Positions 76-12,419 of a DNA stretch of 64,000 nt are shown piece by piece (within the stretch, counting starts at the first letter, position 1; the number at the start of each line of letters is the position of its first letter). The position numbers and the translations under genes were made by a program. Under the pieces are notes generated by a model, which did no database searches, was not told where the DNA came from, and saw only the letters and a list, made by a program, of their open reading frames with translations. The DNA lies in contig NZ_LMJW01000001.1 in NCBI RefSeq assembly GCF_001429505.1, positions 994,606 to 1,058,605 on the forward strand. The letters are read 5' to 3'. Source of the DNA: Allobosea sp. Root483D1 (lineage in GTDB: Bacteria; Pseudomonadota; Alphaproteobacteria; Rhizobiales; Beijerinckiaceae).

Positions 76-1062
76 TCAATCCAGCGAGATCGCCGCAGCC
101 TTCACGACCTCCGCCCATTTCGCCACTTCCTGCGTCTGCGCGGCCTTCACCGCCGCGGCATCGCCGCTGAGCGAACGCACGCCGATCGTCGCGAGCTTCT
201 CGCGCCCTTCCGTGCTTTCGACATAGGCGCGGGTGATCGCGGCGATGCGCGCGACGATCGGTTCGGGCAGGCCCTTCGGCCCGACCATCGCGAACCAGCC
301 CGTCGCGTTGACGCCCGGCAGGCCTGCCTCTGCCAGAGTCGGCACCTCCGGCAATTGCGGGGCGCGCTGGTCGCTGGTCACCGCCAGCGCACGGATGGCG
401 CCGCTTTTGACATGCGGGATATAGGCGGGGATGAAGTCGATGGCGACATTGACCGTTCCCGCCAGCAGATCGGTCGAGAGCGGGGCCGAGCCGCGATAGG
501 GCACATGCGTCATCTGGAAGCCGGCCTTGTGCTGGATCAGCTCGCCGGTGACATGGCCCATCAGCCCGAAACCGGGGCTGCCGAAGGTCAGCTTGCCCGG
601 ATTGGCCTTGCCGTAGGCAACGAGCTCGGCAAAGGACTTGACCGGCAGCGAGGGATGGACCGCGACGATGCCCTGGACGTCGCCAAGCAGCGCGACTGGC
701 GCGAAATCGGCAAGCGGGTCGAAGGCCAGCTTCTTGTAGAGCAGCTTGTTGGTCGCCAGTGGCCCGGAGGAAGAGAACAGCAGCGTATAGCCGTCCGCCG
801 CCGCCCGGACGACGCCGGTCGCCGCGATGTTGCCGCCGGCACCGGTCTTGTTCTCGACGACGAAGCCCTGACCGAGTTCGCTGCGCAGACGCTCCGCCAG
901 CAGGCGGGCGACGACATCGGTCGAGGCGCCCGCCGGGAACGGCACGACGATGGTGACCGGCCGGCTCGGCCAGGTATCGGCGAAAGCCCTCCCCTGGGCG
1001 GCCAGCGCGCCGGCGCCTGCGAGAGAGGCCATGAAGCCACGGCGTGAGATCGGCCGCATCAT
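76..1062 (-). CDS. Bug/TctC-family tripartite tricarboxylate transporter substrate-binding protein
   Basis: Periplasmic solute-binding protein of the TTT (Bug) family, 328 residues, which is the usual size. The N-terminus carries an SRRGFM twin-arginine-like motif, a hydrophobic stretch and an A-x-A site near residue 28. The mature part begins with the family pattern WPSRPVTIVVPFPAG, and further on shows GAGGNIAA and the family block TFGSPGFGLMGHVTGE. The frame stays open upstream to 1194, but the ATG at 1062 is preceded by GGAGG with 8 bases spacing, so it is chosen. No TctA/TctB membrane partners are in the window, as is common for orphan Bug proteins, so the ligand (a carboxylate by family) is unknown. 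It lies downstream of an IclR regulator on the same strand. Confidence 0.92.
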   Translation of the reverse strand: MMRPISRRGFMASLAGAGALAAQGRAFADTWPSRPVTIVVPFPAGASTDVVARLLAERLRSELGQGFVVENKTGAGGNIAATGVVRAAADGYTLLFSSSGPLATNKLLYKKLAFDPLADFAPVALLGDVQGIVAVHPSLPVKSFAELVAYGKANPGKLTFGSPGFGLMGHVTGELIQHKAGFQMTHVPYRGSAPLSTDLLAGTVNVAIDFIPAYIPHVKSGAIRALAVTSDQRAPQLPEVPTLAEAGLPGVNATGWFAMVGPKGLPEPIVARIAAITRAYVESTEGREKLATIGVRSLSGDAAAVKAAQTQEVAKWAEVVKAAAISLD

Positions 1063-1098
1063 TGAGGTTTCCTCCAGACAAAGTTGCTTTGAAGCTGT

Positions 1099-1108
1099 TG
1101 TCCGGACA
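1099..1108. promoter_or_regulatory. Candidate IclR operator palindrome
   Basis: The perfect 10-bp palindrome TGTCCGGACA lies in the 85-bp gap between the IclR-type regulator gene and the Bug-family binding-protein gene, about 37 bases upstream of the latter's start. IclR regulators bind short palindromes close to the genes they control, so this is a reasonable operator. A binding role is inferred only. Confidence 0.4.
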
Positions 1109-1147
1109 CTAGGCACGGGCCGCGCGCGTCCCTTTGGGAAAGCCCCG

Positions 1148-1951
1148 CTATTTCTCGCCTTGAAACGCAACGCCCATGGATTGCGAGAGCGCATCGAGCT
1201 GCGCCTCGATATTGGCGGCCGCCTTCTTCAGCGGATGGATGATCCTGGCCTTGTCGTCGGGATTGGGAACCGCGGCACGGAAGAAGGTGACGCCGAAGGT
1301 CGCGAGCACGCGCTCGCCGAGCTTGATCGGCACCGCGATCGTCGCGGAATTGCGCGGCTCGGCGGCAGGATCGCGCTCGGTGTAGCCGCGCCGGCGCGCC
1401 TGCTCGATCATGCGCTCGACATCCTCGTCGCTGAGGCTGCTGTTCTCCGGCTCGGCCGAGCTACGCATGGCGGCGCGCAGCACCTCTCGTTCCTCTTCGG
1501 GGCAGAAGGCGAGATAGGCGCGTCCGAGCGCCCGGCCGCCGAGATTCAGCCGATAGCCGAGGGTCGCATGAAAGGGCGAGATCGGGCTGTCGGGAATCGT
1601 CGAGAAGCGCACGACCACCGCGTCATAGTCGAGCAGGCAGACGGCGCAGGGCCATTTGATCTGGCGCGTCAAAGCGGTCGCCCAAGGCCGCGCCGCCTCG
1701 ATCACCATCGGCGCGCCATGGAAGCCCGAGCTCAGATGCGCGACCTGCGAGGTCACGAGATAGCCGCGCATGCGCTCGTCGCGCACGACATAGCCGGCCC
1801 CGATCAGGGTCTCGAGCAGCCGCACGATCGTCGGCTTCGGCAGGCCGGTGCGGCGATGCAACTCGCCGACGGTCGCGACGCTGCAGCGGTTGACCTCGGT
1901 CAGCAGCCGCAGCGCCTTGAGAACGGACTGGACAGGCGCAAAGGAGAACAC
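1148..1951 (-). CDS. IclR-family transcriptional regulator
   Basis: DNA-binding regulator of 267 residues with the family's two parts. The N-terminal winged helix (about residues 5-70) includes the recognition-helix region TGLPKPTIVRLLETL, and the C-terminal effector domain (about 85-260) includes GRALGRAYLAF and a late SATIAVPI strand. In IclR proteins the C-terminal domain binds a small carboxylate or aromatic metabolite. The gene directly precedes the Bug-family binding-protein gene on the same strand and probably controls it, perhaps also the fumarase-like and quinone oxidoreductase genes upstream. The effector cannot be read from sequence. The general layout resembles MhpR/PcaR-type activators, but I would not name it. 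Confidence 0.9.
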   Translation of the reverse strand: MFSFAPVQSVLKALRLLTEVNRCSVATVGELHRRTGLPKPTIVRLLETLIGAGYVVRDERMRGYLVTSQVAHLSSGFHGAPMVIEAARPWATALTRQIKWPCAVCLLDYDAVVVRFSTIPDSPISPFHATLGYRLNLGGRALGRAYLAFCPEEEREVLRAAMRSSAEPENSSLSDEDVERMIEQARRRGYTERDPAAEPRNSATIAVPIKLGERVLATFGVTFFRAAVPNPDDKARIIHPLKKAAANIEAQLDALSQSMGVAFQGEK

Positions 1952-2042: not shown

Positions 2043-3026
2043 TTATTCGGGCACGGTGAGGACGACCTTGCCGACCTGGTCGCCGGCATCCATCAGGGCG
2101 TGTGCATCCCGGACGTCGCGCCAGTCGAAGCTCGCACAGACATGGCTGCGGATCGCCCCGCTCGCCAGGAGCGGCCAGATCTGCGCCACCAGCTTGGCGG
2201 CGATCCGGCCCTTATAGGCAGCATCGCGCGGACGGAGCGTCGAGCCGGTCAGGGTGAGCCGGCGGCGGACGATGTTGCGGACATTGACCTCGGCGGTCTG
2301 GCCGAGATGGCTGGCGATCAGCACGACGCGGCCATCGGGGGCGAGCAGTTGCAGCTGCTTTTCCGTATAGGGACCGGCCTGCGCATCAAGCACGACGTCG
2401 ACCTTCTCCTTGCCGATCGCCGCCTCGATCTCCGCAACCCAGTCGGCGCGATAGTCGACGGCGAGATCGGCGCCGATCTCCAGGCAGACCGCGCGCTTCT
2501 CGGCGGTGCCGGCGGTCGCGATCACCCGGGCGCCGCGCAAATGTTTGGCGATCTGGATCGCGGCCATGCCGACACCGCTGGTTCCGCCCTGGACGAGCAA
2601 GGTCTCGCCGTCAGCCAGCCGGCCGAGCCAGACGACATTGTTCCAGGCGGTGAAGAACACCTCCGGCAGCGCCGCCGCCTCAGCGAAGGAGAAGCCTTCC
2701 GGCAAGGGCATGCATTGCAGGGCCGGCACGGCGCAGAATTCGGCATAGCCGCCGCCATTGGCGAGCGCGCAGACCGCATCGCCGACCTTCGGCCAGGCGA
2801 CCTCGGCGCCAACAGCCTCGACCACGCCGGAGACGTCGAGGCCGGGCAGATCGGTCGCGCCGGGCGGCGGTGGATAGAGGCCGCGCCGCTGCTGGATGTC
2901 GGGCCGGTTCACGCCCGCCGCCCGCACGCGGATCAGCACATCGCCGGCACCGAGCGTCGGCATCGGGCGGTCGCAGAAGGCGAGGACCTCGGGGCCGCCC
3001 GGCTTGGTGATCTCGATCGCTTGCAT
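2043..3026 (-). CDS. NAD(P)H:quinone oxidoreductase, zinc-independent MDR family
   Basis: Medium-chain dehydrogenase/reductase of 327 residues, quinone-oxidoreductase branch. It shows the GroES-like N-terminal half (VNRPDIQQRRGLYPPPPG, then LPGLDVSG) and a Rossmann half with VQGGTSGVGMAAIQIAK and a YRAD patch after the dinucleotide fold. The zinc-ligand cysteines and histidines of alcohol dehydrogenases are absent, so it is a zinc-free NADPH reductase. Its close subgroup is the PIG3/QOR type. The ATG at 3026 overlaps the upstream fumarase beta-subunit stop by one base (TGATG), so the two are translationally coupled, although the frame is open further upstream. The physiological substrate, an enone or quinone, is unknown. 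Confidence 0.88.
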   Translation of the reverse strand: MQAIEITKPGGPEVLAFCDRPMPTLGAGDVLIRVRAAGVNRPDIQQRRGLYPPPPGATDLPGLDVSGVVEAVGAEVAWPKVGDAVCALANGGGYAEFCAVPALQCMPLPEGFSFAEAAALPEVFFTAWNNVVWLGRLADGETLLVQGGTSGVGMAAIQIAKHLRGARVIATAGTAEKRAVCLEIGADLAVDYRADWVAEIEAAIGKEKVDVVLDAQAGPYTEKQLQLLAPDGRVVLIASHLGQTAEVNVRNIVRRRLTLTGSTLRPRDAAYKGRIAAKLVAQIWPLLASGAIRSHVCASFDWRDVRDAHALMDAGDQVGKVVLTVPE

Positions 3027-3661
3027 CAGTCGGTCTCGTTGTTCTCTGAGGGGCGGAGCGAGCGCATGATTTCCGGCATACGCTCGCGGGCCGAAGTCAT
3101 CAGGCGCTCGTAGATCGAGTTGCCATGGGCATCGATCGCGACGATCACCGGCCCGAAACCGCCGAGCTGGAGCCGGTTCAGGCGGAACTGCATGATCAGG
3201 TCGCGCCAGGCGCAATCGGTCACCGCCTCGACGCCCTCGCTCAACAGGGCAGAGGCGCCGCCGACGAAGGAGAAATAGACGCAGCCCACCTCGCGCATCG
3301 CGTCGACGCTGTCCTGCGAGAGCCCGCCCTTGCCGCCGGTCGCGGTCAGGCGCAGGCCCCGGATCAGCGTCGGCATCAGATGGTTGAAGCGGCTCGAGGT
3401 CGTCGGGTTGACGTAATGGACCGCGCCAGGTCGACCGTCGCTGTCCTCATAGCTCACGCCCATATGGAAGAAGGCGCCGTCGCGCAGGGACAGGGGCAGC
3501 TCGCGGCCGGCCTCGACCTCCGAAACCATGCGCTTCTGGGTGGGCATGCCGACGGTCGCGACTGCGTCGCCGTCGAGCAGCACGACATCGCCGACCTTGA
3601 GCGCGCGCGCCACCGCCGGCGTCAGCGGCAAGGTCAGGCGTATCGGGGACGGGCTCGTCAT
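3026..3661 (-). CDS. Class I fumarase/tartrate dehydratase family, beta subunit
   Basis: Protein of 211 residues corresponding to the C-terminal swivelling domain of iron-sulfur hydro-lyases (FumA C-terminal part, TtdB). Supporting segments are KVGDVVLLDGDAVATVG, GRPGAVHYVNPTTSSRFN and the glycine-rich TATGGKGGLS, followed by EVGCVYFSFVGG and GFGPVIVAIDAHGNSIYE. It starts inside the stop of the alpha subunit (ATGA overlap at 3658-3661), so the pair is made in equal amounts. The segment that reads GRDxxHxR in many members is GMPTQKRM here, so the usual histidine is Gln. The substrate, whether fumarate, tartrate or another 2-hydroxy or epoxy diacid, is not determined by sequence. Confidence 0.85.
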   Translation of the reverse strand: MTSPSPIRLTLPLTPAVARALKVGDVVLLDGDAVATVGMPTQKRMVSEVEAGRELPLSLRDGAFFHMGVSYEDSDGRPGAVHYVNPTTSSRFNHLMPTLIRGLRLTATGGKGGLSQDSVDAMREVGCVYFSFVGGASALLSEGVEAVTDCAWRDLIMQFRLNRLQLGGFGPVIVAIDAHGNSIYERLMTSARERMPEIMRSLRPSENNETD

Positions 3662-4527
3662 TCGATCCGCTCCACCACGCCGGAATTATAGATCCGGGCC
3701 CGCGTCCGCCGGTTGATCCAGCAATTGAACGAGACCGCGACCGGGGTGAAGCCATGGCCGGAGGCGTATTCGACATGGACGCCGAAGGTCGTGGTCGAGC
3801 CGCCGACGCCCATCGGGCCAAAGCCCATCTGGTTGACCGCGCGGGTCAGCCGCTCCTCCATCTCGGCGACCATCGGCTCGGGATTGCGCTCGCCGAACGG
3901 GCGCAGCGTCGCGTCCTTGGAGAGCTTGGCCGCATGGTCGAAGGTGCCGCCGATGCCGACGCCGATCACCACGGGCGGGCAATGCTGGCCGCCGGCCCGC
4001 AGCACGAGTTCGAGGATGCAGCGCTCGATCTCGTCGAGGCTCGGGCTGACCAATATCTCGACCGCCGCCCAGCGCCCGCCGCCGAGCGCCTTCGGGGCGC
4101 AGGTGATGTCGAGATAGTCGCCCTCGCCGACGAGGTCCCAGGAGACCAGCGGCATGTCCTTGCCGTGAAAGCTGCGCTCATTGGTCAGCGGGTTGGTGAC
4201 GAAACGCAGGAGCGGCGGCTGGATCGTCCGGGTGAGCTCGGCGAAGCCGTCGACGATCGCCTGGCGGATGTCGCCTTCCATGCGCACGCCGGAGCCGATC
4301 TTGATGCTGTAGCTCGGCACGCCGGCATCCGAGCACAGGAACTTGCCGGTGGTCTCGGCCCGCTCGGCGCTATCCAGCATGAAGGCGAGGGTCTGGCGCG
4401 CCTGCGGCTCGGTCTCGCTCGCCAGTGCCTTGCGGAACTCGGCCTTGGAGGATTCAGGGATACGGCGCAGCGACCAATCATAGAGATTGGCGGTGACCTC
4501 CTTGACCAGATCATAGGTGATTGCCAT
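3658..4527 (-). CDS. Class I fumarase/tartrate dehydratase family, alpha subunit (4Fe-4S)
   Basis: Iron-sulfur hydro-lyase alpha subunit of 289 residues. Three cysteines at the expected spacing for a site-differentiated [4Fe-4S] cluster are visible: C65 (KFLCSDAG), C183 (GGQHCPPVVIG) and C269 (FNCWINRR). The segment GIGGTFDHAAKLSK corresponds to the family's GIGG(x)ExA(x)LLAK block, with the usual M/E positions changed. The frame also allows a GTG at 4533, but the ATG at 4527 has a better placed GGACGG upstream. The enzyme would add or remove water across a carboxyl-activated C-C bond together with the beta subunit. It is transcribed away from the ammonia-lyase-like gene at 4692, which hints at a shared pathway. 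Confidence 0.87.
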   Translation of the reverse strand: MAITYDLVKEVTANLYDWSLRRIPESSKAEFRKALASETEPQARQTLAFMLDSAERAETTGKFLCSDAGVPSYSIKIGSGVRMEGDIRQAIVDGFAELTRTIQPPLLRFVTNPLTNERSFHGKDMPLVSWDLVGEGDYLDITCAPKALGGGRWAAVEILVSPSLDEIERCILELVLRAGGQHCPPVVIGVGIGGTFDHAAKLSKDATLRPFGERNPEPMVAEMEERLTRAVNQMGFGPMGVGGSTTTFGVHVEYASGHGFTPVAVSFNCWINRRTRARIYNSGVVERIE

Positions 4528-4691
4528 GCGCACCGTCCGTTCGATGGCGTGAAACTAGTCGAATGACAGAAGCCGGCTGGGCGCCCACGCTGCATTTCGC
4601 GAGGTGAAATCGAGACAGCGCCCCTCCTCGCCTCCCGGCTTCGCTTTATTGAGCGAGTCAGGAAGTGCGCCCGAGGACAGGACGAGCGATC
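4528..4691. promoter_or_regulatory. Divergent promoter region between the fumarase-like and ammonia-lyase-like genes
   Basis: This 164-bp gap separates two divergent starts and must hold both promoters. It contains the interrupted palindrome ATTTC-7 bases-GAAAT (4594-4598 and 4606-4610), a possible regulator site. No convincing -35/-10 pair could be fixed by eye. Confidence 0.4.
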
Positions 4692-6146
4692 ATGAGCCAT
4701 GTCGACATCTCCGGCTTCGATCTGACGATCGCCGAGATCGCCCGCGTCGCCAGGCAGAAGGCGCCAGTCGCCGTAACGCCGGAGGCGGTCGACCGGATGA
4801 AGTCGGCTCGCGCCATCGTCGACGACGCCGTGGCGCGCGGCGAGAAAGTCTACGGCGTCACCACCAGCGTCGGCGCCAAGACCGGCGTGCCGCTCGCTCC
4901 GGAGCGCATCGGCGAGTTCAACCGCCGCCTGCTGCTCACACACAATGTCGCGCACGGCCCCCTTGCCTCGCCCGAGGCCGTCAGGGCGATGATGGTGGTC
5001 CTGCTCAACTCGATGGCGAGCGGCCGCCTCGGCGTGCGTCCGCTGCTGGCCGAGCGGCTGGCCGATGCCCTCAACAGTGACCAGCAGATCGACGTGCATG
5101 TCTGGGGCTCGATGGGCCAGAGCGACATGGCCCCGATCACCGACCTCGCCCTCACACTCTATGGCGATCTCGAGCTGCAAGCCGGCGAGGCATTGGCGAT
5201 GCTGAACTCCAGCGCGCTTGCGCTCGGCATCGCGGCGCTCGCCATCGCCGATTTACAGCGCAGCCTCGACCTCTGGAGCCTGATCGCTGCGCTGAGCATG
5301 GAGGGCTTCGCCGCCAACCCGTCGATCGTCTCCGAGGCCGCCTTGCGCTCGCGCCCCTTTGCCGGGCTGGAGCGGCATGGTCGCCGGATCAGGCGCTATC
5401 TCGACGGCAGCTATATCCTGGCCAAGGGCGGGCCGCGCCACCTGCAGGACCCGCTGAGCTTCCGCTCGTTGCCCCTGTTGCACGGCACGGCCGCGGACAG
5501 CCTGGATTTCGCCTGGCGCCAGGTGGAGACCGAGTTCCGCTCGAGCCAGAACAACCCGATCGTCTCGCTGGAGGAGCGCTCGCTGGTTTCGGTCGCCAAT
5601 TTCGACACGGTCAGCCTGTCGATGGCGCTCGACATCGCCCGCCTCGCCTTCGCGCCGGTCGTCACCGGTTCAGCCGAGCGCGTCGCCAAGCAGGTCGATT
5701 CCTTCTGGTCGGGGCTGACTGTCGGGCTGATCGAGGAGGACGGTGTCGGCCTGCCCGGCTTCAATGGCCTCGCCCAATTTCACAAGGCGATCACCTCGGA
5801 GGCGCGGCTGGCCACCGCTCCGGTCGTTCAGGAGCTCGCCAGCTCCAGCCACTCCAACGGCAATCTCGACCGCGCCGGCATGGCGACCTTCGCCGCCCGC
5901 AAGACGATGGAAGTGGCGATCCTGTGCAAGTCGATCGCCGGGGTCGAGCTGATGGTCGCGGCCCAGGCGGTCGAAAGCCGCAAGGCGACGCCGCTCGGCG
6001 CGACGACCGGCAAGCTCTTCGCCCTGGTGCGCGAGGCGGTTCCGTTCGCCGCTGCCGGTGACCGGGTGCCGCATCTCGATCCGCTGCTGCGGCATGTCGA
6101 GGTGAAGCGTGGCGAGATCGACGCCCTAATCGGCGCCGGCGGCTGA
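4692..6146 (+). CDS. Histidine/phenylalanine ammonia-lyase superfamily protein lacking the MIO tripeptide
   Basis: Member of the aromatic amino acid lyase fold, 484 residues (classical HAL about 510). Family landmarks present are YGVTT (Y54, matching HAL Tyr53), LNSS (N172), Q252-D253-P254 with R258, and NF at 303-304. The region that should carry GSVGASGDLAP reads GSMGQSDMAP (139-148). Anchored on D145, the Ala-Ser-Gly that cyclises to the MIO cofactor is replaced by Gly-Gln-Ser. The HAL tyrosine 280 position is L255, the SQEDH glutamate region reads SSHSNG, and about 23 residues are missing between D145 and N172. MIO-dependent deamination is therefore unlikely; the protein may use another chemistry or be non-catalytic. 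The start at 4692 follows AGGACGAG. Confidence 0.85.
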   Translation: MSHVDISGFDLTIAEIARVARQKAPVAVTPEAVDRMKSARAIVDDAVARGEKVYGVTTSVGAKTGVPLAPERIGEFNRRLLLTHNVAHGPLASPEAVRAMMVVLLNSMASGRLGVRPLLAERLADALNSDQQIDVHVWGSMGQSDMAPITDLALTLYGDLELQAGEALAMLNSSALALGIAALAIADLQRSLDLWSLIAALSMEGFAANPSIVSEAALRSRPFAGLERHGRRIRRYLDGSYILAKGGPRHLQDPLSFRSLPLLHGTAADSLDFAWRQVETEFRSSQNNPIVSLEERSLVSVANFDTVSLSMALDIARLAFAPVVTGSAERVAKQVDSFWSGLTVGLIEEDGVGLPGFNGLAQFHKAITSEARLATAPVVQELASSSHSNGNLDRAGMATFAARKTMEVAILCKSIAGVELMVAAQAVESRKATPLGATTGKLFALVREAVPFAAAGDRVPHLDPLLRHVEVKRGEIDALIGAGG

Positions 6147-6150
6147 GCCT

Positions 6151-8634
6151 TCACGCCTTCGCAGCGTAGCCGGCACGGTCGAGCGCATTGACCGCACGGA
6201 CCTCGCCCGATGGGTCGTCGCTCGTACCCGGGCGTCGGTGCAGGCGGACCCGTCGCGACTCGCCCGGCGCGAGATGGAACCAGTTCCGTTCCGGCCGCCA
6301 GCCGGGATCGACGATCTCGACCGATTGCGCGAAGCGCTGGGTCGAGAGCACGAGCCAGCAATCGTCGCCCTCGCGCTCCAACTGCACCGACAGCTCGCAA
6401 TGATGGCGCTCATGACCGCGCCCGAGCGGGAAGTGGAAGGCCTCGGCCAGTACCGCGCCGCTCGCGGCATCGCGCAGCACGGCCGAGGTCACGTCATGAC
6501 CGGGCGGGCCGAAGCGATAGGCATAGGCAATGTCGAAGAAGCGGCCGATCAGATCGAAGGCCGAGAGCGTCGTCGCCGAGCGGGGTTCGAGCGCAAGCTC
6601 GCGCTTCGCCTGCACCACGACGACCTCGCCGGCGCGCCAGCAGGTCAGCTCCACCGTCGCGGCCAGCGGCTCCGGACGCTCGTTCAGGACATGCAAGGCG
6701 AGCCCATTGACGCCCTCGTCGGTAAGCGCGAGCTGGACCGGCCGGAAGGCGCGGGAGAGGCCATGCCAGGCCGATTTCGGCTCGCCATCGCTGGCGATCA
6801 CGCCCCAGCCGGCACCGGGCTGGAGGTCCTGCAGCAGCCAGACCAGCGCGCCTGATGTCGGCGAACCCGGCCGGCGCCATTCGGCGAAGGTTTCTTCCAT
6901 CACCTCGGCGACAACTGCACGCGACAGCGCGAAATAGCGCTCGGGGTCCTCGCGCCGCAAACGCGCCGGTTCGAGCCCATAGAGCCGTTCGAGATAGTGA
7001 TCGCGCACATCCTCGAAATCCCAGGATGCGCCGGCATCGCGCGGCACGCCGCGCTTCCAGTCGGGATGATGGGTGATCGCCGGCGGCTTGCCTGAGCGCA
7101 GCGAGACCTCCTCCGGCACATTGGCGAAGGCGAGGCTCTCGGCGGCGAAGCGGACATTGGCGCGGCGGGCATCGTCGAGGCCGCGCATATAGGCGCCGAC
7201 GCCGTAGTAATGCGTCACGCCCTTGTCGGCGACGAAAGGCAGCGGCCCGCCCGAAGGCGAATTCGGGACATAAGCGATGTCGGGCCGAAGGCGAGCGACC
7301 GCTTCCGGCAGTATCTCGTCGAAGACCGGGCCGGACCAGGCTTCGGGCGGCGCGCCCAGCATCGCCGACTGCTGGAAGACCTCGCTGCCGCCGCAGAGCA
7401 CGGCGAGAGAAGGCGAACCCTGCGTGCGGCCGAGCAGCGCCTCTGCCTCCGTCTTGATCGCCGCTCGGAAGCCGGCATCGCCCTGCGGATAGTCGAAATT
7501 GGCCAGCATCATCTCCTGCCAGACCATGATGCCGAGCTCGTCGCAGAGCGCGAAGAAGGCGTCGTCTTCATAGCTCATCACGCCGGGCAGGCGGATCATG
7601 TTCATGCCGGCCTCGCGCGCCAACTTGAGCCAGGGCTCGTAAGTCGCCCGCCCGCCAGCCAGTGTCGCGACGTCGGCATTGCTCCAGCAGGCGCCGCGGC
7701 AGAACACCGGCACGCCGTTGACGACGAGGCCGAAGCCTTCGCCATCTTCGCCGCGGTCGACCTCGAGCGAGCGGAAGCCGACGCGGCCGAGATCGATCGT
7801 CTCACCATCCAGTTCGAGTATCAGGTCATGCAGGGCCGGCTCGCCATGGGTATGGGGGAACCAGGGTACGATACCGGGCAGAGATAATGTGCCGGCTAAT
7901 TTCCCTTCGCCATTCACCTGCAAAGCCACTTCACCATCAGCGCAGCACATGATGGCGCTACCAGGCAGCGGCGCATCCGCAGCAAGCGCCAGGCTGAGCG
8001 CAACAGTGCCGCCCTGCCCGTCATAACTCGTGCGCAGGTCAACGGCTTCGATTCTCGCGGCCCCCGCCTCGCCCTCGATCCGCAGCACCGCACGATACGG
8101 TCCGGTCGGCAGGCCGGGCGGGCACCAGCCTGGCATCGAACCTAGCGCGCTGGTACGGAACCAGCGCAGGCCGTTCGGCTGGATCATCGCCGGTCGCCAG
8201 CGGGCCCGGCGCGGCGCGGCGGCGAGCTTCGGCGCCAGAGCGCGGAAGCACAGGGCGATCTCGGTCCCGGCCAGGCATCCGACCGTCAGCTCGACGGCCG
8301 CGAACATGGAGGCGCTGTCGGCCCGCTTGGTGCCGCCGATCCAGATTTCCGTGACGGTCGCCAGCCCTTCGAAACGCAGGCGACCGTTCAACGGCTCTGC
8401 CAGCCTCGCCCGATACCAATGATCCTGCTGGCCGATCGCATTGGCGCTGGCATCGTCGAGCCGCCCGAGGGACCGCAGAGTCCCGGCGACCGTGCCCGGC
8501 ACGGCGGCTTCCTGCCAGTCGCCGGCCTCCGGGAGATCGGCCGGCGTCGCCGCCGCGTCGGCCGGCGTCGCGAGCCAGGACCAGCCCATGAGCGGCTCCA
8601 CCCGCTCACCGGTGTGCGCGACGATGCGAGCCAT
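6151..8634 (-). CDS. Glycoside hydrolase family 2, beta-mannosidase-like
   Basis: Protein of 827 residues with the GH2 architecture: an N-terminal jelly roll (about 35-190, including HWYRARL), an immunoglobulin-like domain (about 195-290), a TIM barrel (about 290-640) and C-terminal beta domains. The barrel shows FCRGACW, GMNMIRLPG and VWQEMMLANF, which are typical of beta-mannosidases. The predicted acid/base is E418, in CGGSE where the family usually has GNNE, and the nucleophile is E499 (FAAESLAF, family SEFG). No signal peptide is seen, so it is probably cytoplasmic. It ends the carrier-protein operon, 3 bases after the DUF1839 gene. It may cleave a mannoside or act on the glycosidic product of that pathway. 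Confidence 0.85.
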   Translation of the reverse strand: MARIVAHTGERVEPLMGWSWLATPADAAATPADLPEAGDWQEAAVPGTVAGTLRSLGRLDDASANAIGQQDHWYRARLAEPLNGRLRFEGLATVTEIWIGGTKRADSASMFAAVELTVGCLAGTEIALCFRALAPKLAAAPRRARWRPAMIQPNGLRWFRTSALGSMPGWCPPGLPTGPYRAVLRIEGEAGAARIEAVDLRTSYDGQGGTVALSLALAADAPLPGSAIMCCADGEVALQVNGEGKLAGTLSLPGIVPWFPHTHGEPALHDLILELDGETIDLGRVGFRSLEVDRGEDGEGFGLVVNGVPVFCRGACWSNADVATLAGGRATYEPWLKLAREAGMNMIRLPGVMSYEDDAFFALCDELGIMVWQEMMLANFDYPQGDAGFRAAIKTEAEALLGRTQGSPSLAVLCGGSEVFQQSAMLGAPPEAWSGPVFDEILPEAVARLRPDIAYVPNSPSGGPLPFVADKGVTHYYGVGAYMRGLDDARRANVRFAAESLAFANVPEEVSLRSGKPPAITHHPDWKRGVPRDAGASWDFEDVRDHYLERLYGLEPARLRREDPERYFALSRAVVAEVMEETFAEWRRPGSPTSGALVWLLQDLQPGAGWGVIASDGEPKSAWHGLSRAFRPVQLALTDEGVNGLALHVLNERPEPLAATVELTCWRAGEVVVVQAKRELALEPRSATTLSAFDLIGRFFDIAYAYRFGPPGHDVTSAVLRDAASGAVLAEAFHFPLGRGHERHHCELSVQLEREGDDCWLVLSTQRFAQSVEIVDPGWRPERNWFHLAPGESRRVRLHRRPGTSDDPSGEVRAVNALDRAGYAAKA

Positions 8635-8637
8635 GGC

Positions 8638-9660
8638 TCAGCCGGGGAAGCGCTGCCCGAGCGCTTCGCTGAGTTTGGCATATTCGCCGACGAGGCCGGC
8701 GAGGGTTGCATCGAGGCGTTCGAAGCGCTTCTGCTTCATCGCCCTGGCGAGATGGAACTGCGCCACCTTGGCGCCCTCGGCGATGCGCAGCGCACCGTCG
8801 CGGGCCAAGTCCAACCCCTCGACGGTCTGGCCGAGCCAGCTCAGATGGCTGGCGAGCAGTTCGAAATTGGCGCCGAGCTGACGCAGCGTGTTGAAGGCGT
8901 AGTGATGGAAGGCCGTCCCCGGCCGCTCGGCCAGCGCCTCGGCCTGCGCGGTCGCGACAATGCGGAAGGCAGCGACCGGGTTATCCTGCGGCCGGCGCGC
9001 CACATGGCGGGCGAGCAGCTTCAGCGCGGTGGCGCGCAAGGCAGCCTTGTCCGGCCGGCGCTGCGGCAGACGCACCATCTCGGCATAAGGGAAGAGCGTG
9101 TCGTCGCGCATCTGCCCCGGCAGAAGCCGGAACAGCCCGTCGAAATCCTCGCCTTCGGCGCGGTGCAGCCCGTCATTGTGGAAATAGTCGAGCTCGCGGG
9201 CGACCCGGTCGAGCCGGTTCACCGCGATCGTCGTCTTGCCGTGGCTGTCGCGATAGGAGACGCCGCGGGTGTCGGGCATGTAGAAGGAATCGAGCTCGAG
9301 CAGGACGAGGCGGCCGAGCCCGATCTGCTGCTCGATATGGCCGATCAGATCGTCATAGAGCGCCAGCTCCGTCACCTTGAGGCCGTAGAGCGCTTCGAGA
9401 TCATCGAGCGGCGGCTTGAAGAAGGTGAACTGGTCGCCCTCGAAATCCTGCGTGATGGTGAAGCCGAATGCCGCCGCCGGCTCCAGCCTAAGCGCATGCA
9501 GGATCTCGATCCAGAGATCGGCATAGCAATTGGTCTGCGGCCAATGCCGCTCGCCGGCATGCATGGCATGCCTGTCATAGGCGAGCGGATCGACCGGCAG
9601 CAGCCGGCCCGCCATGACGGCGCGCGCGGCGATCTTGCGCTGGGCCGTCATGGCGCTCAC
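8638..9660 (-). CDS. DUF1839 family protein, possible aminoacyl transferase
   Basis: Protein of 340 residues of the DUF1839 family, recognised by [14 protein letters not shown] followed by [28 protein letters not shown] and the segment through [15 protein letters not shown] potential Cys-His-Asp/Asn set is visible: C45 in NCYADLW, H140 in YRDSHGKTT, and H161-N162-D163 in YFHNDG. This pattern recalls BtrH/papain-like acyltransferases that take an acyl group from a carrier protein, though the similarity is by eye only. The GTG at 9660 overlaps the ligase stop (GTGA); an ATG three codons in is the alternative. Given its constant partner, the amino acid:[carrier protein] ligase, a role in moving the aminoacyl group to an acceptor is the best guess. 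Confidence 0.82.
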
Positions 9661-10577
9661 GGCCAGAGCACGTTGCGGACCGCAGCCGGCCAGCGCGCGA
9701 CGTCGTAGCCATGGTGCTTGAACAGAGCGAGCGCGACCCGCTCCATGCCGAAGCCGACACAGGCCGTGTGGGCGGTCTCGCCGGCCGAGGTCTCGATGCC
9801 CCAGGTCGTGCCGAAATGGTCCTGATGGTAGTTGAAGGAGAGGCAGGCGGTCGGCTTCTCCTCGCTCTCGATCGGGATAAGCAGCTCGAACTTCAGGCGC
9901 TGGTCGCGCTGATTGTTGGCGAGCATGCGCCCGGCGCGGCCGAAGAACGGGTCATTGGCGACATCGAGATTCAGGGGCACGCCGAGCGAGGCCATCATCT
10001 CCTGGCCGCGCTCGAGCCAGAGTGCACGGAACTCCGTGACCTGCTCGGGCGTGCCGAAGCGGACATATTCGCGCATCCGGAAGAGCTGCATCCGAGCCGG
10101 GTCCTTCGAGGGCTCGTGCCGGAAGCAGTAGGATTGCAGGTCGAACAGTGCGCCGTCCGGCTCGAGCGGGCCGCGCTTGGCGACGACCGGGTAGAGCGGG
10201 TAGCAGGCGGCCGGGGTCAGCACGACCTCAGTCGAAACCTGTCCGTCGGTCCAGTCGACCCCATCAGCAACCTTGTGCAGCAATTCGGCATGGGCACGCT
10301 CGTCGCCCGCAAAGGAATGCACGGTGCCGGCAAGTTGCGGGAAGCTCTTGAGATAGCCGCTTTTCTCGAAATGCTTGCGGCTCATTGCCGGCGGAAAGCG
10401 TACGATCTCGGCGCCGTCCTTTCCGCCATGGCGGGTGATCAGCAGGTCGAACTGGGCGACGACCTCCTCGAACAGGCCGCTGCGGCCATAGAGCCCGTCG
10501 ACGCCGGTGTCGATCAGCAGGCCGTTATCGATCAGCTCCGCAAGGAAGCCCTGCGGCTGGGGGCAGTTCTGGCACAT
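9657..10577 (-). CDS. Amino acid:[carrier protein] ligase (truncated SerRS homologue)
   Basis: Class II aminoacyl-tRNA synthetase-like enzyme of 306 residues without the tRNA-binding arm of seryl-tRNA synthetase. Such enzymes, characterised in Bradyrhizobium and Agrobacterium, activate glycine or alanine with ATP and load it on the phosphopantetheine of a small carrier protein. Motif 2 is seen around [20 protein letters not shown] and motif 3 as [12 protein letters not shown]. The three zinc ligands expected from the Bradyrhizobium enzyme are present as C125 (TPAACYP), E170 (FRMRE) and C273 (HTACVGFG), at the same spacing. It sits 4 bases after the flavoprotein gene and shares an operon with a carrier protein, which supports the assignment strongly. 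Gly versus Ala cannot be decided. Confidence 0.93.
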
Positions 10578-10581
10578 GCGA

Positions 10582-11817
10582 TCACCGGGAAAGGCTGGGG
10601 TCGTGCTTGTACACGGCCAGCAGGTTGGAGGTGTTGCCGAGGATACGGTCGTTGTTGATCATGATCGGCGCCGAGAGCGCATCGCGCATCAGGCGCGCCA
10701 GGCTCGCCGGGCTGTCGTTGCGATAGCCCTGGATGCCGCAGATCAGGAAGGCCTGCATCACGATCTCGCCGACGCTCTGCGAGGCCACGACCTTGATGCT
10801 GTTCATCGCCACGACGAAGCCCATCGAGGAGAGCTCATCGGCATCGCCGCGGGCGCGCTCATAACGATCGAGCCCGGCGACGACCAGCGCCTTGAACTGC
10901 TGCAGGCGGGCAAGCAGCTCGGCGAGGCGCAGCGCGCTCGGCGGGGTCGAGCCCGGGCGCTTGCGCGCCTCGCTGCGCACGAAGCCCTCGGCGCGGGCGA
11001 CGGCCTCGGCCGCGATGCCGTACCAGACCGAAGCCCAGAGCAGATGCGCGTTGGGGAGCATCGACTGCGCCGCGATCTCGGCGAAGGATGTCGGGATGAC
11101 CTGCTCGGCCGGGGCGCGGCCGGCGAAGGTGAAATTGTCGGAGCAGGTGCCGCGCATGCCCATGGTGTCCCAGGCCGCGCTGCGCTCCAGTCGGTACTGA
11201 TCCTTGGTCAGGACCGACATCACCTGGTCGGAAGGCGGCGCCTCGGGGGTGCGCCGCGAGGTGATCAGGATAGCGTCGGCCTGCGCACCGTAGGAGATCA
11301 GGCAGCCTTCCTTGTCGAGCGTGAAGTCGTCGCCCTCGCGCACCACGCCGCAGATCGAAGAGCGCAGGTCACCGCCGACGCCGCCACCCTCGGTCGTGGC
11401 CGAGGCGAGCAGGAGCTGCTCGCGGGCGATGCGGGCCATGAAGGAGCCGTGCCAGGGATCATCACCGCAATGCACCACCAAGCTCGACACCTTGATCTGG
11501 TGCATCGCGTAGATCATGCCGGTCGAGCCGCAGGCCTGGGCCAACACGGCGCAAATCTCGGAGATCGTCGAGAGACTCGCCTGCTCGCCGCCATGCGCCG
11601 CCGGGATCATGATGCCGAGCAGGCGCTCCTGCTTCAGCGCCTCGAAAACCTCGTGCGGGAAACGCGACTTCGCGTCGACATCCGCTGCGTGCTCGGCCGC
11701 GATCTTGGCGATCTTGCGCGCCGCGGCGACCATCGCCTTCTGCGCCTCGGCGCTGGCGCCGAGCATCTCGGAGGTGAGCTGGTAGCCGGCTTCGGCGAGG
11801 CGGGCGAGCGTCGTCAT
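10582..11817 (-). CDS. Acyl-CoA dehydrogenase-like flavoprotein of the carrier-protein operon
   Basis: Acyl-CoA dehydrogenase superfamily protein of 411 residues: N-terminal helices (about 20-120), a beta domain ([14 protein letters not shown], then [13 protein letters not shown], typical of FAD and substrate loops) and C-terminal helices with the [10 protein letters not shown] segment. The position that holds the catalytic base in many members (the Glu of YEGT) reads [13 protein letters not shown], so that Glu is absent. Because its gene overlaps the carrier-protein stop by one base (TGATG), the substrate is probably an aminoacyl thioester on that carrier. Related flavoproteins oxidise prolyl-carrier proteins in pyrrole biosynthesis. 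The reaction here (for example oxidation of alanyl-S-carrier) is inference. Confidence 0.87.
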
Positions 11818-12062
11818 CAGACGTGCTCGCTCTGAATGGTGCGGATCGCGCTCTCGATCGCGGCGATCGAGGCGAAGTTGCGCCGGTTCATCATGTTGTC
11901 GGGGAATTCGACCTCGAAAGCCTCCTCGAGCGCCATCATCAGCTCGACCGTGCCGAAGGAGGTCAGGCCGGCATTGTAGAGATCGGCCTCGTCGGCGAGG
12001 GCGGCGACATCGACCGGCAGCTTGCCGGTGGTCTTGAGGATTTCGCGGATCCTGGTCTTCAT
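11817..12062 (-). CDS. Small acyl/aminoacyl carrier protein
   Basis: Acidic carrier protein of 81 residues with the phosphopantetheine attachment serine at S35 in AGLTSFGTVELM, where the common motif is DSL. The following helix reads ALEEAFEVEFPDNMM, a normal ACP recognition helix. It must be activated by a phosphopantetheinyl transferase encoded elsewhere. The ATG at 12062 has GGACGAG a few bases upstream; the frame extends further to 12155 but without a ribosome site and with residues atypical of the family. It is the first gene of the operon and the presumed partner of the amino acid:[carrier protein] ligase. Confidence 0.9.
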   Translation of the reverse strand: MKTRIREILKTTGKLPVDVAALADEADLYNAGLTSFGTVELMMALEEAFEVEFPDNMMNRRNFASIAAIESAIRTIQSEHV

Positions 12063-12419
12063 CTCTCGTCCTGCCCTGTATCGGATCACTGGTGCGGCGC
12101 TTCGCAACAGCCGTACCGTCACTGCCGGAAAGCCTTTTGTCGGCCAGCCAGACATTTCTTTTTCTTCCGAGAGCCTAGTCTCTAAGATTTAAGGCTGCCT
12201 TGCTTTCGCTGTCGAAAACCAGCCGCAATCGCCGTTGCGGCTGCCATTGCAACCTGTGGTAAACGGCGCCTTGCGGGGATGAGGATCACATGGGCCGGAT
12301 CACGTTTACGATGATCCGGGATTTCGCCAGCCGTCGCCTGCCGGTCGCCCGACTTGGCCGCTGCCTTGCTTTATCCGACGAGGATGCGCGGAAAACAGTA
12401 GCCGCGTCGGAGACAGATA
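12063..12419. promoter_or_regulatory. Divergent intergenic region between the carrier-protein operon and the polysaccharide locus
   Basis: A 357-bp stretch without a credible gene. It lies between the minus-strand carrier protein and the plus-strand acyltransferase and should contain both promoters. A locally AT-rich patch (about 12150-12195, with a run of T and TTTAAG) is the most promoter-like part. A 61-codon frame from 12290 runs into the acyltransferase in another frame and shows no family features, so it is not called. Confidence 0.45.

Follow-up and report, generated by a model that had tools for sequence, protein, structure and literature searches.

Background

MIO is the textbook answer to the expulsion of ammonia from aromatic amino acids, and it forms from an Ala-Ser-Gly (A-S-G) triad in the ammonia-lyases and aminomutases (HAL, PAL, TAL and TAM) of the PF00221 (Lyase_aromatic) fold. 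In histidine ammonia-lyase (HAL, encoded by hutH), Glu414 faces the imidazole of the substrate. A lyase of the same fold that does without MIO is also known: ergothionase (ergothioneine trimethylamine-lyase) is reported to lack it (PMC13405746). Ergothionase is the only MIO-lacking relative named among the open-access matches listed, none of which deals with the subfamily described below; in the accessible part of PMC9002059 the term 'Ala-Ser-Gly' has no occurrence and 'lack' is used in other senses.

We hereby describe a PF00221 homologue without the MIO triad, encoded in a stretch of 64,000 nucleotides of Allobosea sp. Root483D1 (the window), and compare it with ergothionase, with the MIO enzymes and with other MIO-free members of the family. 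The coordinates of the gene, of its diagnostic segments and of its neighbours are collected in Table 1.

Table 1. Features of the lyase locus, in positions of the window
Feature	Position	Strand	Basis
TctC-type periplasmic binding protein, tripartite tricarboxylate transporter	76..1194	-	PF03401, E 8.4e-64
IclR-type regulator	1148..1951	-	NF007342, 276 bits, cut-off 251
PIG3-family quinone oxidoreductase-like protein (QOR)	2043..3032	-	TIGR02824, 415.5 bits, cut-off 296.8
Class I fumarase-like beta subunit (FumB-like)	3026..3661	-	PF05683, E 6.3e-20
Class I fumarase/tartrate-dehydratase-like alpha subunit (FumA-like), divergent from lyase	3658..4533	-	PF05681, E 6.6e-63
Candidate operator ATTTC-N7-GAAAT in the divergent intergenic region	4594..4610	.	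conservation, inferred
PF00221 lyase homologue without MIO triad, 484 aa	4692..6146	+	ORF, PF00221 match, solved-structure comparison
Codons of G142-Q143-S144-D145, at the A-S-G site of MIO enzymes	5115..5126	+	sequence, alignment
D159-L160, site of the missing 23-residue hairpin of HAL/PAL and ergothionase	5166..5171	+	alignments
R249-x-x-Q252-D253-P-L255-S-F-R258, Leu at the Tyr280 site	5436..5465	+	alignment
E381 to R394 segment, two-residue insertion, Leu392 at the HAL Glu414 site	5832..5873	+	alignment

Results

An active site without the MIO triad

The reading frame of the lyase homologue holds zero internal stops, and its 484-residue product matches PF00221 with an E-value of 2.5e-92 (310.5 bits, cut-off 27.3); the match splits into two stretches and the loop region lies outside both. 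A preliminary description had assigned the protein to the HAL/PAL fold by its conserved residues, and the alignment agrees: HAL positions Tyr53, His83, Asn195, Gln277, Arg283 and Phe329 are kept as Y54, H84, N172, Q252, R258 and F304, and D253 is also in place beside Q252. HAL numbering is used as the reference, the positions on the 484-residue protein being placed by alignment. The same description read Gly142-Gln143-Ser144 before D145 in place of A-S-G. This reading holds and can be refined, as the loop GSMG-Q-S-D is one residue shorter than the GS.G-A-S-G-D of HAL/PAL and contains no A-S-G. MIO cannot form here from the usual triad.

The protein has one A-S-G elsewhere, A109-S110-G111 (NSMASGRLG), which might have been the second intact triad that the preliminary description had left to be looked for. 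In the structure model it occupies the end of helix 94-109 and the following turn, before the MIO loop, and it is missing in six of the 22 family sequences introduced below (L032-L035, L038 and L044); because it lies outside the MIO loop and is absent from these members, it was not taken as an MIO site.

Two further substitutions that had been proposed, the loss of the catalytic tyrosine and of the glutamate region, were both recovered by alignment: the HAL Tyr280 site is Leu255 and the HAL Glu414 site is Leu392. The span from D145 to N172 measures 28 residues, compared with 51 in the HAL of the same genome (hand count on the alignment), so that the suggested deletion of about 23 residues behind the MIO loop is real. 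In the structure model of the protein the pLDDT falls below 50 at residues 56-64, 140-144, 342-357 and 384-391, all at active-site loops.

A conserved and selected subfamily

A homology scan of genome contigs returned 21 loci, 20 of which have a near-full-length gene; these 20 genes, the window gene and a gene from a Pseudorhodobacter plasmid make up a family set of 22 sequences (21 in the family alignment, from which L022 was left out; the copy L045 is truncated at the end of its contig). The other family sequences belong to several genera and are 54-92% identical to the window protein. GS[MIT]G[QE]SD with the same spacing, followed by QDPL, is found in 22/22 near-full-length members, the loop residue before S-D being Q in 19 and E in 3. 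Leu255 is likewise present in all 22, and Y54, N172, Q252, R258 and F304 are invariant. The Glu414 site is Leu (19 members) or Met (3 members) in the family, whereas it is Glu in all the 56 other rows of a 78-row alignment, in which L020 was dropped as the same gene as L004. In that alignment, 39 invariant family residues, including H88, W138, H364, K365, H387 and R394, occur in at most 10% of the other rows. The subfamily is also marked by a two-residue insertion before the Glu414 region and by the missing hairpin, which is shortened in L093 and L102 too and absent from L155.

The ratio dN/dS is 0.119-0.178 for five pairs that include the window gene and 0.134 and 0.089 for two other pairs; over these seven pairs (0.089-0.178) the gene is under purifying selection. 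A sequencing error, which the preliminary description had considered, is excluded because the 22 near-full-length members all carry the loop with the same spacing. Its view that the changes are coordinated and do not reflect decay is upheld by the loop and Leu255 common to the 22 members and by the dN/dS values, and the homologue alignment that it had proposed as a check leads to the same point: short loop and Leu255 are conserved in a clade of near-full-length frames. The sequences thus delineate a distinct MIO-free subfamily, conserved in long open frames and with coordinated changes.

The gene is accessory, since an intact copy exists in only 2/10 listed genomes of the genus (the own genome counted) and that of a further one, G052, is a remnant, recognisable over residues 294-484 (L024 8553-9125) and in a weak 58-residue piece. 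Homologues of FumAB, QOR, IclR and TctC were not found in the 16-kb stretch around this remnant. The window copy is without sign of decay.

Comparison with ergothionase and with HAL

The closest solved relative is the ergothionase of Treponema denticola (PDB 6s7j/6s7q), with a phmmer E-value of 4e-40; it is also first in the profile search (6.3e-63, the next match being a HAL at 4.5e-53) and in Foldseek (4.6e-22). The structural alignment by VIA-align gives it a Z of 36.0 (rmsd 2.9, 452 aligned), a narrow lead, as HAL and tyrosine aminomutase are tied with it within about 1-2 Z units: Thermoplasma acidophilum HAL (7tqr) reaches 35.5, tyrosine aminomutase 35.4 and Pseudomonas putida HAL (1b8f) 34.4. 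Fumarase and aspartase folds match at Z 12-14.

Ergothionase resembles the window protein in several respects: it has the PF00221 fold and no A-S-G triad, its loop (SSIGEGD) is likewise short by one residue, Leu occupies the Tyr280 site within QDPLSFR, and the arginine R249 and an acidic residue at 305 are present. The two proteins differ in that they are only 23% identical in the structural alignment, that ergothionase keeps the post-loop hairpin and Glu414, both lost in the window protein, and that it has Ser at the site of N172. Moreover, the five ergothionase-like rows of our unrooted tree, of which only that of T. denticola is a characterised ergothionase, group together at 100/100 without the subfamily.

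HAL shares with the window protein the fold and the positions Y53, H83, N195, Q277, R283 and F329, but the window protein is devoid of the MIO triad and of the hairpin and has Leu for both Tyr280 and Glu414. The HutH models score it at 226-246 bits, against cut-offs of 524-539. Neither A-S-G in the MIO loop nor Tyr280, the marks of the MIO ammonia-lyases and aminomutases, is present in any of the 22 members.

The cofactor-free side of PF00221

An unrooted tree was built on 63 rows with the loop columns removed (16 near-duplicates were dropped and L153-L155 are not part of it). The 13 sampled family rows form a 100/100 group, which joins L093/L102 at 99/95 and not the ergothionase-like rows. 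A branch with 100/100 support has 18 MIO rows and five 'GS[VA]GY' rows on one side and, on the other, the rows with a loop one residue short (13 of the subfamily, 5 ergothionase-like and 22 others). The 'GS[VA]GY' group, nested among MIO enzymes, has lost A-S-G and Tyr280 separately. Its loop occurs without A-S-G in L080 (Rhizobium johnstonii pRL11, 5977-7464), in a gene annotated hutH, and also in L081, L013, L105, L110, L149 and L152; L149 sits between ProX-type transport genes and urocanase.

In the 78-row alignment, none of the 55 MIO-free rows has Tyr at the Tyr280 site, and 21/23 MIO rows have it, the two exceptions being the rows that have A-C-G in place of A-S-G. R249 occurs in all 22 subfamily members, in the five ergothionase-like rows and, among the 23 other rows with a short loop, in a fraction of 0.96; it is absent from all 23 MIO rows and so marks the MIO-free members.

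The other MIO-free groups (for example L004, L014-L019, L021, L083-L093, L153 and L154), of which to our knowledge no member is characterised, are like the subfamily in having a loop one residue short and Tyr280 replaced, L153 and L154 included. At the Tyr280 site the 23 other short-loop rows have Leu (15), Ile (6), Val (1) or Phe (1). They differ from the subfamily by an Arg at the His83 site (20/23) and by keeping Glu414 (23/23), and most of these groups keep the hairpin.

Of 57 genomes from the window's class that were searched for PF00221, 23 gave matches. Among 37 genes sampled (at most 8 candidates scored per genome, the own genome counted, and one gene, L151, broken by a stop), 28 have A-S-G; of the nine that lack it, two are from the window's own genome. 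These nine genes, together with the loss of Tyr280 in 55/55 MIO-free rows, correct the impression of a singular oddity conveyed by the preliminary description. Ergothionase is a precedent for PF00221 lyases without MIO, and the subfamily is a separate, uncharacterised branch. A very divergent PF00221 protein was also encountered in L155 (7594-9153, genome G205); its loop is 'GQGGA-GE', it reads QAPVSYR and lacks the hairpin, and it is possibly another separate MIO-free group; a non-reversible-model tree of 60 rows, rough and unsupported, places it on the MIO side and L153/L154 beside the root.

Gene neighbourhood

Besides the neighbours of Table 1, the same contig carries HpaI-type aldolase, cupin-like and DUF6282 homologues at a distance of 2.3-5.0 kb ahead of window base 1. 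The label 'cupin-like' was given by eye, two of its members being without a Pfam or NCBIfam match, as were those of CoA-transferase III, PcaI/J and PotABC-like proteins. The neighbourhood was compared in 23 loci from 21 genomes, with L030/L044 and L035/L045 as pairs and flanks of different length; the window's genes upstream of base 1 fall outside the counted stretch. Genes on the loci were called by a codon-usage script, except in L022, for which mechanical ORFs were taken because the script had missed genes.

The regulator near the lyase is of IclR type in 16/23 loci and of GntR type in five, with neither in two (Advenella). A FumA-like gene lies about 0.2 kb from the lyase in 9/23 loci and 9-10 kb away in two more; a cupin-like gene is present in 13/23 and an HpaI-type aldolase in 10/23. 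The loci of Bosea group B differ, with genes for two enoyl-CoA hydratases and an amidohydrolase and one that by eye is CoA-transferase-III-like. Two Bosea genomes (L030/L044 and L035/L045) have two subfamily copies each in different contexts, one with IclR and FumAB-like genes, the other with GntR and, in L044, enoyl-CoA hydratases.

Plasmid stretches of Paracoccus, Roseomonas, Leisingera, Microvirga and Parasedimentitalea contain a similar cassette but no visible lyase. The Parasedimentitalea stretch includes fumarate-hydratase and flavin-reductase genes, and in a Rhodococcus cupin-like and aldolase genes come after a ring-cleavage set. Because the cassette also occurs in stretches without the lyase, the tie between the two may be loose. 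Its gene content and these lyase-less and ring-cleavage contexts give the cassette the look of a lower pathway for carboxylic acids, and the lyase probably feeds into it; the pathway is not named by the solved structures related to the neighbouring hydratase, aldolase and amidohydrolase.

The IclR-type protein of the window is the probable regulator of the cassette. In the candidate operator, TTTC and TGAAA are invariant in 8/8 intergenic regions aligned from the Bosea-like group A. A repeat finder listed no repeat for the window, the 5-bp arms of the candidate being shorter than its seed of 6, and a scan for promoters and terminators returned 0 of either. On the other side of the lyase, seryl-tRNA-synthetase-like, small carrier, acyl-CoA dehydrogenase and DUF1839-like proteins are encoded in a row at 8638-12155 (minus strand), presumably an amino acid:carrier-protein ligase cluster, as it resembles one by eye; it is adjoined by a gene for a GH2-like protein (6151-8634; PF22666 just above cut-off).

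Quaternary-amine genes near MIO-free lyases

Six types of marker (DMGDH-like, SoxB, GbcA-like, OpuAC/ProX-like, urocanase-like and HutI-like) were sought in the flanks of the 22 relatives, the window not included, and found in none, which weakens a trimethylamine reading for the subfamily. In the loci of other MIO-free groups, OsmF/OpuAC, DMGDH-like, SoxB (703 bits, cut-off 529), GbcA-like and thiourocanate hydratase genes do occur. An enrichment of such quaternary-amine genes, seen there by eye, was not significant when counted: betaine and N-demethylation markers are present in 8/24 of these loci and in 3/20 MIO control loci (Fisher p 0.29), where five of the eight (L162, L163, L171, L174 and L114) had supplied the queries, which favours the MIO-free side, and the three control matches are weak (25-35% identity). 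A quaternary-amine context for the other MIO-free groups is thus at most suggestive.

The genome of the window carries a second MIO-free PF00221 gene (L114 9168-10706, on C11; loop GSIGAG-D), adjoining a glycine-betaine-monooxygenase-like (GbcA-like) Rieske oxygenase (423 bits, cut-off 670). In L170 (5018-9441, genome G597) a MIO-free lyase with the loop GSIGCA-D lies near a thiourocanate hydratase gene (1006 bits, cut-off 930); although not one of the five ergothionase-like tree rows, it is a good candidate for an ergothionase. A presumed Rieske oxygenase at L157:6187-7455 turned out to be a branched-chain aminotransferase. Directly upstream of a Paraburkholderia copy of the subfamily, an MHS transporter scores higher with TcuC (334 bits, cut-off 445) than with ProP (268 bits, cut-off 544).

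Discussion

The fold family, the loss of the MIO triad and of Tyr280, the purifying selection, the conservation and the neighbourhood are observed, and on their basis the protein is probably a functional lyase that has the HAL/PAL fold and does without MIO, cofactor-free in the manner of ergothionase and belonging to a separate subfamily, and that acts on a non-imidazole carboxylate with a leaving group better than ammonia. The preliminary description had offered either a MIO-free lyase with another activation mode or a binding protein. The former fits best because ergothionase, the nearest solved relative, is a lyase reported without MIO; nothing positive was found for the latter.

That the protein is catalytic, that it eliminates, which group leaves and that the reaction opens the pathway are our proposal. 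Y54, N172, Q252 and R258 most likely bind an alpha-substituted carboxylate, from which acid/base catalysis would expel the leaving group to give an alpha,beta-unsaturated acid. By precedent, the leaving group could be a tertiary amine such as trimethylamine. The unsaturated acid would then enter the catabolic cassette, under the IclR- or GntR-type regulator, where it could be acted on by a class-I-fumarase-like hydratase or else by enoyl-CoA hydratases accompanied by a CoA-transferase-like protein, and amidohydrolase-type hydrolases and the HpaI-type aldolase may carry out further steps. An imidazole substrate is unlikely for the subfamily because Glu414, whose role in HAL is given above, is lost.

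This last point bears on whether the protein is itself an ergothionase, or a trimethylamine lyase of hercynine (histidine betaine), with a substrate of the same class as that of its closest characterised relative, which we regard as very unlikely. Ergothionase is indeed the best solved match, and HAL His83 is kept as H84, as in the five ergothionase-like rows; moreover L102, which groups with the family, adjoins urocanase-like and imidazolonepropionase-like genes, and the GntR protein encoded next to the group-B copies of Bosea has some likeness to HutC, at 78.5 bits against a cut-off of 220. However, Glu414 is lost in 22/22 members and kept in 5/5 ergothionase-like rows, the N172 site is Ser in all five, these rows make a 100/100 clade of their own, and no urocanase-type gene is present in the 22 family loci, although a thiourocanate hydratase gene (1006 bits, cut-off 930) lies near another MIO-free lyase, L153.

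A different chemistry, in which a MIO-free lyase or hydro-lyase would release water, ammonia or an amine from a di- or tricarboxylate, is unlikely. The chemistry would be that of aspartase and fumarase, in which the proton is made acidic by a beta-carboxylate. The TctC-type binding proteins of the group-A and Advenella loci, the Paraburkholderia transporter nearer to TcuC than to ProP (both below cut-off), the class-I-fumarase-like genes divergent from the lyase in 9/23 loci and the structural matches to fumarase and aspartase folds are consistent with it; on the other hand, the transporters vary by lineage, PotABC-like or amino-acid-type ABC systems taking their place elsewhere (by eye), and fumarate-hydratase genes also occur in the cassette without the lyase. 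It is doubtful, and clearly less probable still, that the protein is a catalytically dead binding or regulatory protein: MIO, Tyr280, Glu414 and the hairpin are gone, but the other active-site positions are invariant, the 39 residues that are rare in the other rows are invariant too, and a characterised enzyme without MIO and Tyr280 exists. Decay or a sequencing artefact is hardly credible. The gene seems dispensable in G052, where only a partial copy is recognisable, yet the 22 open, near-full-length members share the loop and evolve at a dN/dS of 0.09-0.18 in seven pairs.

The conserved subfamily retains the fold and much the greater part of the active site, whereas MIO and Tyr280 have been dropped together, which points to an elimination reaction not yet assigned. 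The name 'histidine ammonia-lyase', when given by family membership, needs a check of the loop, since 9/37 sampled genes are without A-S-G. As a tentative extension, somewhat unlikely on present evidence, PF00221 could have a broad and mostly unrecognised cofactor-free side, with the subfamily among its most reduced branches and carrying out a new C-N (or C-O) elimination. If the MIO enzymes nest inside this cofactor-free diversity, as they may in a tree that is unrooted, MIO could have been acquired late by an ancestral lyase that had no cofactor, and would then not be the starting state. The subfamily offers candidates for new substrates, and gain versus loss of MIO becomes a question for a rooted phylogeny.
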